A stretch of DNA of 64,000 bases, taken from positions 1 to 64,000 of the forward strand of contig NZ_FNFO01000004.1 in assembly GCF_900100765.1 (NCBI RefSeq). The letters run 5' to 3'. The stretch comes from Catalinimonas alkaloidigena. GTDB taxonomy: Bacteria > Bacteroidota > Bacteroidia > Cytophagales > Flexibacteraceae. The position numbers and the translations under genes are program-made. Below are positions 17,566 to 49,052 of the stretch, piece after piece. The notes under the pieces are model-generated. The model did no database searches. It was not told the origin of the DNA and saw only the letters and a list, made by a program, of their open reading frames with translations. Position 1 is the first letter of the stretch. Every line of letters begins with the position of its first letter.

Positions 17566-18126
17566 TTATCGCTCTGCCACCTTCCGGATCTGCTGGATGC
17601 ACTTGTACTTCTGATTGCTGGCCGTGTGCTTGTTTTTCCAGCCCATCGTGTGCATCAACTCCTCCATCGGCTGCTCCTGAAAATAGAGCGACTGCAACAC
17701 CTGCTGGCAATGGTCGGTGATGTGCGTGAGCCAGGTGTGAACGGCCGTTTCGCGTTCTGGCTCGGCCGGTTCGGGGGTCTGCCACGCCTGCTGGTCGTGG
17801 AGCGCCGCCAGCCGTTCGGCGTCGTCGGTCGTAATCCACGTTTCGTCGCGCAACTTCTTAAGCCACAGGTTGCGGGCAATGGCGTAGAGAAACGTGTGGA
17901 GCGAAGCAGCAAGTTGAAAATTGGGGCGGGCCATTTTCTGATGCAGCACCAGCATGGCTTCCTGAAACAGGTCCTGCGCGTCGTCGTCCTGCCCGCGATT
18001 TTGCCGGACCAACCGGGCAATGGCCGGATACGCCTGCGCGTACAGCGCTTCGTACGCGGCAGCCTCTCCGGCACGGAGGTCGGCCAGCAATTGCGTCTGA
18101 CAAGGAGGATGCGGTCTTTCCATCAT
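17566..18126 (-). CDS. ECF-type RNA polymerase sigma factor
   Basis: A 186-residue sigma-70 family protein with regions 2 and 4 only. Region 2 includes DDAQDLFQEAMLVLHQKM and the DNA-melting segment LHTFLYAIARNLWLKKLRD (~residues 75-98). Region 4 near the C-terminus has CQQVLQSLYFQEQPMEEL followed by the helix-turn-helix AHTMGWKNKHTASNQ-like segment (here MHTMGWKNKHTASNQKYKC). No anti-sigma gene is adjacent: the downstream neighbour is thioredoxin, the upstream one divergent. It belongs to the orphan ECF-like factors common in Bacteroidota; the target regulon is unknown. Confidence 0.82.
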   Translation of the reverse strand: MMERPHPPCQTQLLADLRAGEAAAYEALYAQAYPAIARLVRQNRGQDDDAQDLFQEAMLVLHQKMARPNFQLAASLHTFLYAIARNLWLKKLRDETWITTDDAERLAALHDQQAWQTPEPAEPERETAVHTWLTHITDHCQQVLQSLYFQEQPMEELMHTMGWKNKHTASNQKYKCIQQIRKVAER

Positions 18127-18271
18127 ACCTGCTTTATACCCAAACGGACCTGAGAATCACCCGGGCAAGGTAAATAAATTTACGGTTGTGCCCTACGGTA
18201 CCCTGTATGCAGGAACCCAACCGGACCAGGTGCGTACATAGAGCAGTTTAGTCATCACACCTTTACCTCTC

Positions 18272-43038: not shown

Positions 43039-43386
43039 ATGCACCAGAAAATTGCACTGCTGGCGGCCCGACACGCGCTCCACGCTTCCGGTCAGGAATT
43101 CAAAACGTTTTTTGAACACGGTACGCTCGCGGTCGAACTGTACAAGCCCGACGGTACCGACAAGCAAACGCCACACGACCGCGACGAGGTTTACCTTATT
43201 GCGTCGGGGCACGGCACGTTTGTGCTGGAAGGCGATTCTACCACGATCCAGACGGGCGATTTTCTGTTCGTACCGGCAGGCGCCGCGCATCGTTTTGTAG
43301 AATTCTCGGCCGATTTCAGCACGTGGGTGTTGTTTTACGGACCTTCCGGTGGCGAGTCCGGCACGCCGATCAACCACCTTTCTTAA
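43039..43386 (+). CDS. Cupin-domain protein
   Basis: A 115-residue single-domain cupin. Motif 1 is DKQTPHDRDEVYLIASGHGTF, giving His and Glu ligands, and motif 2 is DFLFVPAGAAHRFVEFS with the last His. The protein is cytoplasmic and probably binds a metal ion. It lies 12 bp after DinB and 7 bp before the SDR gene, so the three are likely co-translated. The substrate is unknown. Confidence 0.85.
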   Translation: MHQKIALLAARHALHASGQEFKTFFEHGTLAVELYKPDGTDKQTPHDRDEVYLIASGHGTFVLEGDSTTIQTGDFLFVPAGAAHRFVEFSADFSTWVLFYGPSGGESGTPINHLS

Positions 43387-43393
43387 TCCGCCG

Positions 43394-44140
43394 ATGGAAA
43401 ACGTGCTGCTCGTGACCGGTGCCAGTCGCGGCATCGGGGCCGCGACGGCGGTGCTTGCCGCGCAACGGGGCTACCGGGTCTGTGTGAACTACCGGCAGGA
43501 CCATGCCGCGGCCCAGAGCGTGGTGGACACCATCCGCCGTCGCGGAGGGAAAGCCGAGGCCTTCGCCGCCGACGTCTCGTCCGAAACCGACGTACGGTCT
43601 CTGTTTCAGACCCTGGACCGGCAGGTCGGACGCCTGACTGCGCTGGTCAACAATGCAGGCACGCTGGAAACGCAGCAACGCGTGGAAGCGATGGAAGCGG
43701 CGCGATGGCATCGCCTGTGGCAGACCAACGTCCTGAGTTGTTTTTTATGCACCCGGGAGGCGATTCACCGCATGTCGACCCGGCGGGGTGGCGCGGGCGG
43801 TGCCATCGTCAACGTCTCGTCGCTGGCGGCGCTAACCGGCGCGCCTCATGAGTATGTCGATTACGCTGCCTCCAAAGCGGCGGTCGAGGCTTTCACGCGT
43901 GGCCTGGCCCACGAAGTAGCCGCCGAGGGCATTCGCGTCAACGGGGTCAGGCCAGCCTTTATCCATACCGACATCCACGCCCGGGGCGGCGAGCCTGATC
44001 GGATCGAGCGGATCAAACCCCACATTCCGCTGCAACGCGGCGGGCAACCCGAGGAAGTAGCGCGTGCCATTCTTTGGCTTCTTTCCGATGAGGCATCGTA
44101 CAGCACCGGCACCTTTCTCGACGTCACGGGCGGGAAGTAA
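43394..44140 (+). CDS. Short-chain dehydrogenase/reductase
   Basis: A 248-residue classical SDR. The cofactor motif TGASRGIG is at residues 8-15, NNAG at 86-89, and the catalytic set Asn112, Ser142/143, Tyr157 and Lys161 is complete (EYVDYAASKAAV). The C-terminus DVTGGK is typical of FabG-like members. It probably reduces or oxidises a small carbonyl compound with NADP(H). I chose the ATG at 43394; the longer frame would overlap the cupin gene by 38 bp. Last gene of the AraC-associated group. Confidence 0.9.
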   Translation: MENVLLVTGASRGIGAATAVLAAQRGYRVCVNYRQDHAAAQSVVDTIRRRGGKAEAFAADVSSETDVRSLFQTLDRQVGRLTALVNNAGTLETQQRVEAMEAARWHRLWQTNVLSCFLCTREAIHRMSTRRGGAGGAIVNVSSLAALTGAPHEYVDYAASKAAVEAFTRGLAHEVAAEGIRVNGVRPAFIHTDIHARGGEPDRIERIKPHIPLQRGGQPEEVARAILWLLSDEASYSTGTFLDVTGGK

Positions 44141-44142
44141 AT

Positions 44143-45438
44143 TCAGAAGGTCCACCCCCAGGCGTCGACGCCCAAGGCCAGTAGCGCCCCCATCCCGTTG
44201 TGGAGCGTATGCGCCAGGATGGAGGGCCAGAGGCTGCGCGAACGCTCGTACAACAGGGCGAACACGGCTCCGCCCAGCGCCGCGTTGCTGGCCTGCAACG
44301 GTTGCAGGTGCGTAAGGGCAAAGATGCCGGAACTGAGCAGGATCGCCCCCCATACCGGAAATTTCGTGCGGAAACGCGCGTAGAGAAAGCCCCGGAAAAA
44401 CAACTCTTCGGAGAGGGGCACCAGCCCCACAATCAGAAAGAGCAAGATGCCGTTTTCCCAGCCGGGGTATCCGTTGTGGAGAAATACGCCCTGCGCCGTT
44501 TGCCGCCAGGCGGGCAGCCACGCCCCGATTCCTTTCGCCAGCGGCAGCATTACCCACGTGAGCGACAAGCCTACCCCCCCACCGATCAGCAGCCAGCGCG
44601 TCGTTGTCTTCCGAAAACCCACCGCCGCCCAGCGGTGTTTCTGCCACAGCACCTTGATGCCCAGAACACCCGCCGTGAGGCCCAGCGCCTTGCCGAAATG
44701 GTTCACCAGATGCACAGCCAGGGGCATCGACGTTCGCCCTTCAAAAAATTTCTCGAAGCCTATGGTGTACTTCACGTAGCCCATTGCCAGGACATTGACC
44801 AGCCCGTAGATGCCGACGAACACCAGGAGGATCAGTGCGGTATCGCGACCGGAATAACGTATAAATCCCGTTGCAGCGCGGGACGGCTCAACTGTCGGCT
44901 CGTACTGGCGGAGGTAGCCGGTCCATTCGTTCAGGTAAGGCTGGTAGCGGCGCCGAATCACCAACGCCTGCAACACCGATAGCCCCACGCCGACAAGCAG
45001 CAGCGGCAGGTTGTCGGGATCGTACCGGATGCCCAGCATCAACAGCGCAGGCACCACCCCCAGGAGCAGAAGCAGTTCGAGCGAGCGGTACCATTTTACG
45101 CGGCGAATCAGCAGCCGCAACCGTTGCGGCAACGCCTCTCCATAACGGGTCGTCCGGAAATCGTAGTGGAGCGCGAAGAACCCCACCCAGATCAACAGCA
45201 ACACCCCCAGCATTTTTAGAAAGCCGCGCCCGGACCCGGGGTCGTGCAGGAAATTGGACACGAGCAGAAACAGCACCAGCGCCGCCAGACTCCCCCCCCC
45301 GATGATCCACCGCAACCGACGATTGCGCGACTGCAACTGCGTACGTCGCGTGTGCAATAGGTCGTGCAAGGCGTCGGCCGAGAGTGCCGCCGGTTCAGGG
45401 GTTTGTTGCCAGGCTTGTTTCAGCTCATCGAGTTTCAT
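44143..45438 (-). CDS. Anti-sigma-like N-terminus joined to a CPBP intramembrane protease
   Basis: A 431-residue polytopic membrane protein. The C-terminal part is a CPBP/Abi (Rce1-like) glutamic protease: EELFFRG (Glu344, Glu345), His377 in IFALTHLQP, and His410/Asn414 in LAHTLHNGM. The first ~165 residues differ: a soluble head (MKLDELKQAWQQTPEPAALS...LLHTRRTQLQSRNRRLRW), then four helices. Such a head-plus-helices pattern is common in small membrane proteins encoded after sigma factors in Bacteroidota, which are taken as anti-sigma factors. It overlaps the sigma gene by 14 bp. I infer a membrane anti-sigma protein carrying its own protease; the anti-sigma role is not proven. Confidence 0.7.
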   Translation of the reverse strand: MKLDELKQAWQQTPEPAALSADALHDLLHTRRTQLQSRNRRLRWIIGGGSLAALVLFLLVSNFLHDPGSGRGFLKMLGVLLLIWVGFFALHYDFRTTRYGEALPQRLRLLIRRVKWYRSLELLLLLGVVPALLMLGIRYDPDNLPLLLVGVGLSVLQALVIRRRYQPYLNEWTGYLRQYEPTVEPSRAATGFIRYSGRDTALILLVFVGIYGLVNVLAMGYVKYTIGFEKFFEGRTSMPLAVHLVNHFGKALGLTAGVLGIKVLWQKHRWAAVGFRKTTTRWLLIGGGVGLSLTWVMLPLAKGIGAWLPAWRQTAQGVFLHNGYPGWENGILLFLIVGLVPLSEELFFRGFLYARFRTKFPVWGAILLSSGIFALTHLQPLQASNAALGGAVFALLYERSRSLWPSILAHTLHNGMGALLALGVDAWGWTF

Positions 45439-45919
45439 GCCGCAGGAGGTGTTTTAGTTTCTTTTTGATACGATTCAGTTTCACGCCGACGTGCGTGGGC
45501 GTCAGGTCCAGCAGTGCGGCAATGTCCCGGTAACTTTTCTCTTCCAGGTACAACAGCACGAGGGCTTTTTCGAGCCGGTCGAGTTGGGCAATGGCCCGGT
45601 ACAACGCCGCTTCGGCATCCGGCAGTGCGGCAGAAGGGGGCGCGGGCAACGTTTCGGTGTGGCGCAGCGCCAGCGGCACCAGGGCCGGGCGGCGCGTCGT
45701 TTTCCGTACGTAGGTAATGGCGGTATTCAGCGCCACCCGGTACATCCAGGTCGAAAACGGAAGCTCCGCGCGGTACGACGGCAACGACCGCCACAGTTGC
45801 AGCACCATCTCTTGCATCAGGTCTTCCCGCTCCTCGGCCTCACGTGCGTACATCCGGCCGATCTTGTGCAGGATGCCCTGGTGTTGCGAAAGGAGTTCGA
45901 GAAAAGCGGATTCGGTCAT
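45425..45919 (-). CDS. ECF-type RNA polymerase sigma factor
   Basis: A 164-residue sigma factor. Region 2 is seen in EREDLMQEMVLQLWRSLPSY and LPFSTWMYRVALNTAITYVR; region 4 in LEKALVLLYLEEKSYRDIAA and LLDLTPTHVGVKLNRIKKKL. It overlaps the start of the CPBP fusion gene by 14 bp, which means translational coupling and suggests that the two products interact. Divergent from the PadR gene at 46080. Confidence 0.87.
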   Translation of the reverse strand: MTESAFLELLSQHQGILHKIGRMYAREAEEREDLMQEMVLQLWRSLPSYRAELPFSTWMYRVALNTAITYVRKTTRRPALVPLALRHTETLPAPPSAALPDAEAALYRAIAQLDRLEKALVLLYLEEKSYRDIAALLDLTPTHVGVKLNRIKKKLKHLLRHETR

Positions 45920-46079: not shown

Positions 46080-46415
46080 ATGAAAGGAACGTACCTGGGT
46101 GAGTTTGAAGAACTTGTTTTACTGACCGTCGCCGTGCTGTACGAAGAGGCCTACGGCATCGCCATCAAAAAAGAGATGGAAGAGCGGCTGGAGCGGTCGG
46201 TGAGCGTCGGCGCCCTGCAATCGGCCCTGGCCCGGATGGAGAAAAAGAGCTACCTCTCCTCCCGCCTCGGCGACGCCACGCCCGAACGCGGCGGCAAGCG
46301 CAAGCGCTACTACACCGTGACGCCGGCGGGCTACAAGGTGCTCCGCGAAACGAAAGAGACGCGCCTGCAACTCTGGAACGCCATTCCTCGCCTCGCCTTC
46401 GACTTTAGTCAGTAA
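46080..46415 (+). CDS. PadR family transcriptional regulator (copy 2)
   Basis: A 111-residue PadR protein nearly parallel to the one at 13446-13775. It shares YLGEFEELVLLTVAVL, GIAIKKEMEERLERSVSVGA, LQSALARMEKKSYLSSRLGD and RYYTVTPAGYKVLRETKE. The FtsX-type permease begins 3 bp after its stop. It probably represses its own operon. Confidence 0.88.
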   Translation: MKGTYLGEFEELVLLTVAVLYEEAYGIAIKKEMEERLERSVSVGALQSALARMEKKSYLSSRLGDATPERGGKRKRYYTVTPAGYKVLRETKETRLQLWNAIPRLAFDFSQ

Positions 46416-46418
46416 GGT

Positions 46419-49052
46419 ATGTCCACACCGCGCCCTCCCCATATCGCCCACTGGTTTCTCCGATGCTTCTGCCGTCCCGAACTGCTGGAAGCCGTCGAGG
46501 GCGATCTGCACGAACTGTTCGAAGAACGGCTCACCACGCTGGGAACGCGGCGGGCCCGCTGGTACTACGTCCGCGATGCGCTGGTGCTGTTTCGTCCGTC
46601 CCTCATCCGTCATGTCTCACTCTCTTTCTTTCTTGTACCCATGCTCCAGAACTACTTTAAAGTCGGCCTCCGGCAATTGTTGCGCCATAAATTTTACGCC
46701 ACCGTCAGCCTTCTGGGACTGGCTGTCGGCATGGCCGCCTGTCTCCTGATTTCGCTGTATGTGGCCGATGAACTGAGCTACGACCGCTACCATGCGCACG
46801 GCGATCGCCTGTACCGCGTGGCAGGCAACTACCGACACGGTGGAGATGAACCGCAGCGACTGGCCCTCACTAATTTTCAGTTAGCGCCCCTTCTGGAAAA
46901 CGATTTTCCGGAAATAGAGCAGTGGGTACGGCTGGATTTTATGAGCAAAGTGGTGGCCAACGGAGCGCAAAAGCATCAGGAAACGAATGTCCTGGTGGCG
47001 GATTCCAGCTTCTTCGAACTGTTTTCTTTCCGTCTGGTGCAAGGAAGTCCCGCCACAGCGCTGTCGGGTCCTCAACAGGTGGTGCTGACTGAGGTTACCG
47101 CACAGAAGTATTTCGGTACCCAGGATCCGATGGGGCAAACGCTGGAGATCGACGACCAACCTGTCCTGGTTACGGGCGTGATGGAGGCCATACCGACCAA
47201 CACCCATTTCCACGCCGATCTGGTGCTTTCGATGGCAACGCAAGTGCCGCTCTATCCCGACTACGTAGTTCGCTACCGAACGGGAGCCCTGACGCAGTAT
47301 ACGTACGTCCTTTTGGAGGAAGGGACCGATCCGCAGCAACTGGAGGCACAACTGGAAAACTTCGTAGCCACACACGACGGACCGGAAGCGGTCGACGAAA
47401 CGCAGTATTTCCTGCAGCCGCTTGCCGATATTCATCTGCGCTCTGATCTGGGACAGGAGATTGAGCCCAACGGTAGCATCACTTACGTGTATATGTTCAT
47501 GGCCGTGGCGCTGATTATTCTATTGCTGGCCTGCGTCAATTACGTGAACCTGGCGACCGCCCGTGCCACCGAGCGCGCCAAAGAGGTCGGTCTGCGTAAA
47601 GTAGTCGGGGCGCACCGGTCACAACTGATCGGGCAATTTCTGGGTGAATCGCTCCTGATTGTGTTGCTGGCCTCCGTACTGACGGCCGTACTGGTCTGGG
47701 CGGCGATGCCTCTCTTCAACCAGCTTGCCGACAAGCAACTGGCGTTTCGTCCGTTTTCGAACTTCCCGCTTCTGGGAGGTCTCCTGCTCTGCGCGGTGAG
47801 CATCGGCGTGCTGGCCGGTAGCTATCCGGCGCTGGTACTGTCGGCCTTTCGGTCGGTGCAGGTGCTGAAGGGAGGCAGCGTCTCTCCCGGGCGGCGGTCG
47901 CTGGGGACGCGGAAAATCCTGGTGCTGGGCCAGTTTGTGCTCTCCATTGCGTTGGTCATCGCTACGTTGGTCATCGGTCAGCAACTGCATTTCCTGCATC
48001 ACAAACGCCTGGGATTCAACACCCATCAGGTGGTGACCATGCCGCTTTCGCCTGAGGGTTTTCAGCGTTTCGGGGCGCTGAAAGAAGCATTGCAGCGCGA
48101 CCCTCGGGTGACGTCCGTCACGGCTTCGAATTCCCCCCTGACCGAACGCGTCGGCGGGTGGCGACAATACCGCATGGCGGGGCGTACGCCAGAGAGTGGC
48201 CTCAACATACCCACCATCGATGTCGACTTCGACTTCTTCCAGACCATCGAGGCGGAGATGGTGGCCGGCCGTAGCTTCTCGTCCGACCGCCCCGCCGATA
48301 CCCTCAATGCCTACATTTTGAACGAAACAGCCGCCCGCTTCCTGGAACTGGATGATCCGGTCGGTGCTAGTTTGCAGGGTACACTTTTCAACGGGGCACA
48401 ATGGTCGGGCAAAGACGGGATTGTCATCGGCGTGGTGAAAGATTTTCACTTTGCGTCGTTGCACAACAAAATCGAGCCGGTGGTATTCAGTCTTTATACT
48501 ACGCAAACGTTTCCGTTGCGCTGGGTGTCCGTACGCCTCCGCAACGAGGATGTGAGCGAGGCGTTGGGTTTTCTGGAAACCACCTGGCAGCAGTTTGATC
48601 CCGAGCTACTGTGGCACTACTCGTTTGTCGATCAGGAACTGGCCGAGAAGTACCGGGCCGAGGCGCGCTTTCTACAGGTATTCAGTCTGTTTTCCGGGCT
48701 GGCCATTCTGATTGCCTGTTTGGGACTTCTGGGGCTGACGGCCTTTGCCGTACGGCAGCGGACCAAAGAAATCGGCATCCGCAAGGTGCTGGGTGCTTCA
48801 CTGGCCGATCTTGTGTTGCTGCTTACCCGGGAGTTTCTGTGGCTGGTGCTTCTTGCGTTTCTCATCGCCGTTCCGCTGGCGTGGTACTTCATGCGACAGT
48901 GGCTCGACGATTTTGCCTACCGCATCAACCTGACCGCCTGGCCCTTTGTGCTGGCCGGGGCATCGGCCCTGCTGCTGGTGTGGCTGACCTGTAGTTCACA
49001 GAGCTTGCGGGCGGCGCTGGCCAATCCGGTCCGTTCGCTTCGCAACGAGTAA
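46419..49052 (+). CDS. FtsX/MacB-type ABC permease with N-terminal prefix domain (copy 2)
   Basis: An 877-residue permease with the same build as the one at 10838-13441. A soluble prefix (FCRPELLEAVEGDLHELFEE) comes first, then TM1 near residues 90-110, a MacB-PCD domain, the helices around 355-470 with ERAKEVGLRKVVGAHRSQL, a second PCD domain, and C-terminal helices with RQRTKEIGIRKVLGASLADL. No ATPase gene is adjacent. The two permeases are clear paralogues but diverged in the periplasmic domains, so they may respond to different ligands or stresses. Confidence 0.87.
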   Translation: MSTPRPPHIAHWFLRCFCRPELLEAVEGDLHELFEERLTTLGTRRARWYYVRDALVLFRPSLIRHVSLSFFLVPMLQNYFKVGLRQLLRHKFYATVSLLGLAVGMAACLLISLYVADELSYDRYHAHGDRLYRVAGNYRHGGDEPQRLALTNFQLAPLLENDFPEIEQWVRLDFMSKVVANGAQKHQETNVLVADSSFFELFSFRLVQGSPATALSGPQQVVLTEVTAQKYFGTQDPMGQTLEIDDQPVLVTGVMEAIPTNTHFHADLVLSMATQVPLYPDYVVRYRTGALTQYTYVLLEEGTDPQQLEAQLENFVATHDGPEAVDETQYFLQPLADIHLRSDLGQEIEPNGSITYVYMFMAVALIILLLACVNYVNLATARATERAKEVGLRKVVGAHRSQLIGQFLGESLLIVLLASVLTAVLVWAAMPLFNQLADKQLAFRPFSNFPLLGGLLLCAVSIGVLAGSYPALVLSAFRSVQVLKGGSVSPGRRSLGTRKILVLGQFVLSIALVIATLVIGQQLHFLHHKRLGFNTHQVVTMPLSPEGFQRFGALKEALQRDPRVTSVTASNSPLTERVGGWRQYRMAGRTPESGLNIPTIDVDFDFFQTIEAEMVAGRSFSSDRPADTLNAYILNETAARFLELDDPVGASLQGTLFNGAQWSGKDGIVIGVVKDFHFASLHNKIEPVVFSLYTTQTFPLRWVSVRLRNEDVSEALGFLETTWQQFDPELLWHYSFVDQELAEKYRAEARFLQVFSLFSGLAILIACLGLLGLTAFAVRQRTKEIGIRKVLGASLADLVLLLTREFLWLVLLAFLIAVPLAWYFMRQWLDDFAYRINLTAWPFVLAGASALLLVWLTCSSQSLRAALANPVRSLRNE

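Follow-up and report, generated by a model that had tools for sequence, protein, structure and literature searches.

An ECF sigma factor gene overlapping a gene for a probable membrane anti-sigma factor fused to a CPBP domain in Catalinimonas alkaloidigena

In Myxococcus xanthus, the extracytoplasmic function (ECF) sigma factor CarQ is translationally coupled to CarR, a multipass protein of the inner membrane that sequesters it directly (PMC8156234). In Bacillus subtilis, the anti-sigma factor RsiW of the sigma factor SigW is cleaved by PrsW, a member of the CPBP/Rce1 superfamily (PMC4602095, PMC9263693). The present report concerns a locus with features of both: in Catalinimonas alkaloidigena (Bacteroidota), positions 1–64,000 of contig NZ_FNFO01000004.1 (this whole 64,000-nucleotide stretch is referred to as the window) carry an ECF sigma factor gene that overlaps a gene for a single 431-residue protein, in which a head predicted to have four transmembrane (TM) helices, a probable anti-sigma factor, is joined to a CPBP domain. 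The parts are of known kinds (ECF sigma factor, probable multipass anti-sigma factor, CPBP protease), and the joining of the last two occurred in no other genome searched; among the titles and beginnings of abstracts searched, none described an anti-sigma factor fused to a CPBP protease.

Each likeness to a described system is partial. An earlier note on this DNA had started from the premise that sigma is released when a second, independent protein, a protease, cuts the anti-sigma factor, which is the case for PrsW and RsiW (PMC4602095, PMC9263693), whereas the inactivation of CarR, and with it the mechanism of release, is given as unresolved (PMC8156234). CarR has six TM helices and belongs to the DUF1109 group, to which none of 31 heads of the family described below had a match, and the excerpt mentions no protease domain for it (PMC8156234). 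PrsW and RsiW are separate proteins, whereas protease and putative anti-sigma factor are fused in the window, and the motifs of PrsW, EExxK and HxxxD (PMC4602095), differ from the EExxxR and HxxxN found here, placing the window protein outside PrsW. Control of a membrane signalling partner by CPBP/Abi-domain proteins is described for Abx1 and CovS in Group B Streptococcus and for SpdC and WalK in S. aureus, but these are separate proteins and the partners are histidine kinases.

Within Bacteroidota, the EcfO–Reo and Das–Dma systems (Bacteroides, Phocaeicola) likewise pair an ECF sigma factor with an adjacent membrane anti-sigma factor, and an ECF/anti-sigma pair has been annotated in F. psychrophilum (PMC9723704). 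In Dma, however, one TM helix is combined with a long disordered tether and a beta-barrel at the C-terminus (PMC13088901), whereas the window head is predicted to have four TM helices and shows none of these: residues 1–196 were modelled as all-helical with four long helices, and standalone heads are ~200 aa. The RsgI anti-sigma factors of Clostridium thermocellum are released through proteolytic steps, and autoproteolysis is a term used three times in the paper, but the membrane cut is made by RseP and no fused protease is mentioned in the excerpt (PMC12203970). A class I anti-sigma domain lies near only ~6% of Bacteroidetes ECF sigma factors, and other anti-sigma classes are suspected (PMC7406223); given this figure, an unrecognised anti-sigma class is to be expected in Bacteroidetes, and the head family, which was found behind its sigma subfamily at almost all loci examined, is a strong candidate for such a class. 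The family may already be recorded in the ECF classification literature.

The sigma factor and its four-helix partner

The sigma gene (45425–45919, minus strand) encodes 164 aa with Pfam matches above cut-off to Sigma70_r2 (PF04542, E = 4.7e-15) and Sigma70_r4_2 (PF08281, E = 7.4e-11), and a match to TIGR02937 of 81.9 bits (cut-off 42.9). It falls outside NF058625, the GFO_1088/PG0214 ECF sigma family, for which it scored 51.7 bits against a curated cut-off of 130; the sigma factor of locus L022 scored 79.5 bits (loci are cited by L numbers). Identity to the 33 other members of the sigma alignment was 32–49%. The fusion gene (44143–45438, minus strand; open reading frame (ORF) with Pfam match) starts with an ATG that falls within the sigma gene, close to its end, and 14 bp (45425–45438) are common to both genes. 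Recomputation of the gap as -14, like the two ORFs, their strand and their coordinates, agreed with what the earlier note had given. The same overlap of -14 was found in standalone pairs (L037, L039, L048, L069 and L093).

The head (residues 1–180; 44899–45438, minus strand) was delimited from a family profile and an AlphaFold2 model. A search with these residues in 291 genomes of the order returned three good standalone matches (E 1e-6 to 4e-5), proteins of 195–197 aa from one genus, each encoded behind a sigma factor 43–45% identical to that of the window. A four-row profile extended this to 29/395 genomes of the phylum (E 0.001), and a 31-row profile, at E 1e-5, to at least 193/390 genomes of the order, at least 69/395 of the class and at least 21/195 of another class; both profiles include the window's row, the genome draws overlap, and the tallies are lower bounds, with only the best 8 candidates scored per genome (up to 16 in the other-class scan). 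The class-wide profile scan missed two unfused pairs of the host genome, which were found by separate searches, and ten genomes of the same family yielded no head at E 1e-5 among the 8 or fewer candidates scored in each. Seven weak matches (L023–L029, E 4e-4 to 0.0085) and L052 matched no head, sigma or CPBP profile and were not counted; L052 and L057 were excluded from the 31-row alignment.

Membership of the head in this family holds without its own contribution to the profile. Thirty standalone rows (profile positions 1–195), with the window's row left out, matched fusion residues 1–176 with E 1.1e-16, and still with E 3.9e-14 after removal of the head's three closest relatives, whereas the E 2.7e-33 obtained with the 31-row profile is not independent, because that profile includes the window's row. 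Chance resemblance is ruled out, since searches begun with the head and searches begun with the sigma factor converge and the window-free profile still matches. What the earlier note had called an anti-sigma-like head is therefore a member of a real family, homologous to a widespread small membrane partner, though its length is ~180 residues rather than 165. With a full-length profile match and a sigma gene adjacent at a gap of -14, it is, as judged from these alignments, a complete copy of the predicted four-TM protein that accompanies this ECF sigma subfamily in Bacteroidota, and the sigma factor next to it belongs to the subfamily trailed by that partner.

The head family lies outside the models of Pfam and NCBIfam, any one of which matched at most 2 of 31 members. 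The scattered matches of individual members (DUF3611 the best, E 6.7e-7, two members; SLATT, two; RseC_MucC, one, E 0.0025) are taken as noise, although the coincidence with RseC, by name a sigma-E regulator, may be a hint. At the level of sequence, class I anti-sigma, FecR and DUF1109/CarR-NrsF were absent among the 14 Pfam families matched by the 31 heads at E 0.01, and a search of PDB sequences with the head gave nothing better than E 0.05. Sigma–head pairs also occurred in records labelled as other than Bacteroidota, namely L152 (Rhodanobacter), L178 (a metagenome-assembled genome labelled Proteobacteria) and L190 (Wenzhouxiangella sediminis), where head scores were weaker (41.9, 41.9 and 34.4 bits, respectively); these may reflect transfer, a greater age of the family or wrong labels on the bins.

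The association between head and sigma factor was close to constant in both directions. Starting from the head (E 1e-4), 79 distinct head ORFs were collected, window included, and 78/78 of those outside the window had a same-strand sigma gene of the same subfamily directly 5′; one of them lay truncated at the edge of its locus, and its sigma gene was found once more sequence was included. Heads lacking a nearby sigma gene, which the earlier note had named as the observation that would speak against its proposal, were thus sought and did not appear. Starting from the sigma factor, the best 80 of 589 relatives in a contig scan (Hymenobacter, Rufibacter, Pedobacter, Aquimarina, Spirosoma and others) had a head at the 3′ end of the sigma gene in 78 loci. 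The Hymenobacter sigma factor of L191 is 89% identical to that of L032, from genus g17 of the order to which the host belongs, pointing to Cytophagales as the probable order. In 77/80 the head start adjoined the sigma end, and in L190 the head (E 1.1e-9) overlapped the open frame of the sigma factor. The two exceptions were L134, which stops at a contig edge, and L179, where a 233-aa ORF gave a marginal match. Gaps between sigma and head lay mostly between -20 and +66 bp, with -14, -4 and -1 recurring. Chance adjacency was estimated at <1% per gene from the 35 ECF matches returned by a sigma profile search of the 7.1-Mb host genome. Downstream of the pair no conserved third gene was found, the largest cluster accounting for 5/39 downstream ORFs. 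Anti-sigma genes are usually recognised by such close pairing and overlap with a sigma gene, which makes the head a probable anti-sigma factor; that the locus encodes an ECF sigma factor and a probable multipass anti-sigma factor is well supported by synteny.

Two further sigma–head pairs were present in the host genome, L222 (head E 7.2e-6) and L223 (head E 8e-14), both unfused. The weakly matching partner at L222 (also L274; host contig C4, near 518 kb) looks, on visual comparison, like the ORF that follows the sigma gene of L179, and is perhaps a divergent branch of the head family.

The head was modelled with a predicted local distance difference test (pLDDT) of 82.9 from 129 rows (127 of 148 non-redundant heads, 21, mostly the weakest, being left out, together with the window head and L223), giving helices at residues 3–11, 21–63, 71–90, 103–139 and 141–183. 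The hydropathy of the window head peaks near residues 50–57, 78–86, 125–132 and 151–155, which fits four TM helices. Basic residues were concentrated in the N-terminus, the TM2–TM3 loop and the tail, suggesting that these are cytosolic, that almost nothing of the head is periplasmic, and that both modules of the fusion can face the same side; the cytosolic portion is small (~42 N-terminal residues, the loop and the tail). The most conserved positions of the family include L3, D4, L6, K7, W10, E46 and L107, together with the tail positions Y165, G166, L172, E178 and L179. Of the 100 strongest covariation signals across 149 sigma–head pairs, 40 fell in head residues 1–42, against 23.7 expected, a weak support, since shared ancestry inflates such signals; for this test, and for that of the tail motif given below, regions and positions were picked after inspection of the alignment. 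The head C-terminus tolerates additions: the head at L271:3687–4622 (minus strand; also L054:2675–3364) has an 80-residue C-terminal extension with an extra hydrophobic stretch and its own sigma gene upstream, and is adjoined by an ordinary second sigma–head pair.

The CPBP part and its fusion to the head

Residues 198–431 (44146–44847, minus strand) make up a Rce1-like CPBP part, identified by Pfam, by motifs and by fold comparison. The match to PF02517 covers residues 331–416 (E 4.8e-22, 78.5 bits, cut-off 22.4), and the CPBP motifs are complete: EELFFR at 344–349 (EExxxR), FALTH at 373–377 (FxxxH) and HTLHN at 410–414 (HxxxN). When residues 177–431 were aligned with 24 other CPBP domains, E344, E345, R349, F373, H377 and H410 were invariant and N414 was present in at least 90%. 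A model of these residues (25 rows, pLDDT 77.4) was closest to SpdC (6u0o; Z 14.2, root-mean-square deviation 4.6, 205 residues aligned) and Rce1 (4cad; Z 11.8, deviation 4.2, 195 aligned), the next structure having a Z of 5.9. Foldseek ranked the same two first (prob 0.99 and 0.98), but with E values of 0.11 and 0.13 and none at or below 0.001. The modelled domain thus has the fold of Rce1 and SpdC, and the protease looks intact; the intact active-site residues and the matching fold bear out the earlier note, which had described a CPBP protease. Head and CPBP part were modelled as separate chains, and a mixed full-length alignment, which had set head C-termini against the CPBP domain, was discarded and entered no model. 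Elsewhere in the host genome, CPBP loci comprised one ordinary gene (L219) and L220 (C12, near 82.6 kb), which is interrupted by a TAG.

The two parts are connected by a 17-codon linker (residues 181–197; 44848–44898, minus strand), and the reading frame is unbroken over 431 codons. Between codons 160 and 206 there is no in-frame ATG, GTG or TTG, hence no start for the CPBP part ahead of its first hydrophobic stretch, and that part is hard to read as a gene in its own right. The G+C fraction at third codon positions (GC3) was similar in the head (0.794) and the CPBP part (0.803), and lower in the linker (0.412). The fusion is real, being neither a chance ORF nor an obvious frame error, and has so far been seen once.

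The same fusion, sought in other genomes as the earlier note had proposed, was found in none of those searched. Among the other head loci examined (flanks of ~1.5–4 kb), there was no CPBP domain on any head and no CPBP match inside the locus. A scan with the whole protein over GTDB genome contigs, reaching close relatives only, gave 62 matched stretches, none of them a relative; elsewhere, only the CPBP part was matched, in 59 relatives. Among plasmid records, 20 matched the CPBP part and none the head. In the loci collected from the head, standalone heads ended within 8 residues of the profile end, save for the extension of L054/L271, and in those collected from the sigma factor nine more heads extended 34–67 residues beyond the profile. 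Head-matching open frames of at least 300 aa showed, in their loci, no C-terminal CPBP fusion, their extra length lying mainly 5′ of the head (108–237 residues), with L272 and L273 also running ~50 residues past the profile; for the order-wide search the frames checked were those among the matches listed, and frames of 250–300 aa were checked in part. As the fusion was absent from the other genomes searched, a switch built on it is without comparative support as a fusion.

Possible routes of sigma release

On the reading that we favour, the arrangement would constitute a sigma/anti-sigma switch in which the CPBP module carried by the head controls sigma release, by cutting the head or by reshaping it. 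The head would keep sigma against the inner side of the membrane by means of its cytosolic N-terminal helix (LDxLKxxW), the TM2–TM3 loop and the tail; in this genome, the C-terminus of that partner continues into what appears to be a full CPBP protease; and the module would sense a membrane or envelope signal and then free sigma. Release might follow from a cut in the cytosolic or membrane segments of the head, within the same molecule or an oligomer, or from a change that the module imposes on the head's shape. Because the precedents of PrsW and Abx1 diverge, we consider CPBP-controlled release about evenly balanced between true and false, and self-cleavage below that: a one-protein switch by regulated intramembrane proteolysis, in which the protein's own glutamate-type protease cuts the head, in cis or in a dimer, and frees sigma, we hold to be rather doubtful. 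Should the head prove to be a substrate of its fused protease, a pathway otherwise made up of several proteins would here be contained in one chain. The fusion in any case offers a concrete guess at how multipass anti-sigma factors might be switched off, a matter unsolved even for CarR, and a true one-protein switch would hint at the release mechanism of a large, un-modelled Bacteroidota family of four-TM proteins.

Several observations weigh against control of release by the CPBP module, or against the head as its anti-sigma target. The head has almost no periplasmic part, so that a cut outside the membrane, where RsiW with its single TM helix is cleaved, is unlikely here. The head matches no anti-sigma model in Pfam or NCBIfam, and a search with its modelled fold gave generic helical bundles only, with no meaningful match in the PDB. 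The tail motif of the family (YG..L..L...EL) is retained at 2/6 positions in the fused head, which on this feature departs from the family; a tail score of 2 or less was seen in only 4/129 rows, window included, the other three (L055, L211 and L212) coming from one genome family. E46 and Y121, present in 78% and 67% of rows, are lost as well, and the three losses together could mean that the head is drifting. The degraded tail, noticed post hoc, also fits a role that was lost or taken over after fusion. With no fusion relative in the genomes searched, selection on the fused unit cannot be shown. Finally, Abx1 keeps all the CPBP motifs, yet regulates CovS without the protease residues (PMC3578759).

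This last precedent underlies the alternative that fares best, and which we regard as possible, though on the unlikely side: that the head is an anti-sigma factor and the CPBP part a sensing or scaffolding module, which would shift the head's hold on sigma without cutting, by analogy with Abx1 and CovS and perhaps with SpdC and WalK. Abx1 with alanines in place of two glutamates and two histidines still works, through protein–protein contact (PMC3578759), and SpdC, the best structural match of the window's CPBP part (Z 14.2), interacts with 10/16 histidine kinases of S. aureus (PMC5854430). The fusion, however, has retained every catalytic residue, as have the 24 other CPBP rows, although retention does not prove use, as Abx1 retains them too.

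A looser history, in which the anti-sigma gene of an ordinary pair became joined to a CPBP gene and the halves are independent or drifting, would account for a joined form found in one genome only, for the 2/6 score of the tail motif, for the two unfused pairs in the same genome, and for a linker whose GC3 is unlike that of either half. We find it improbable, given that the 431-codon frame is intact, that the N-terminal motif (LDELKQAW; LDxLKxxW in the family) is retained at 5/5 positions and that the CPBP motifs are all in place; both halves are, moreover, far from their nearest relatives, pointing to a fusion that is not brand new.

Slightly less credible again is a head that is a partner of another type, for example a membrane receptor that activates or recruits sigma rather than inhibiting it. 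The want of a recognisable anti-sigma domain and the small cytosolic part would suit such a partner, but the place of the head gene, its overlap and its almost invariable association with an ECF sigma gene form the usual anti-sigma pattern, and CarR is a multipass anti-sigma factor of similar layout (PMC8156234). Lastly, a sequencing or assembly artefact joining two adjacent genes, to which the single assembly and the linker GC3 below that of both halves might point, is very improbable in a 754-kb contig of a 99.51% complete genome, with no in-frame CPBP start at codons 160–206 and no CPBP match in the other head loci examined.

Neighbouring genes

The window carries a further ECF-type sigma gene (17569–18156, minus strand), which has a region 2 match and lies outside the head-associated subfamily. 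Beyond the start of the sigma gene under study lie, on the plus strand, a PadR regulator (46080–46415) and then an 877-aa MacB/FtsX permease (46419–49052), both of which point away from it. On the other side, a short-chain dehydrogenase gene (43349–44140, plus strand) converges on the fusion gene, with 2 bp separating the ends of the two ORFs.

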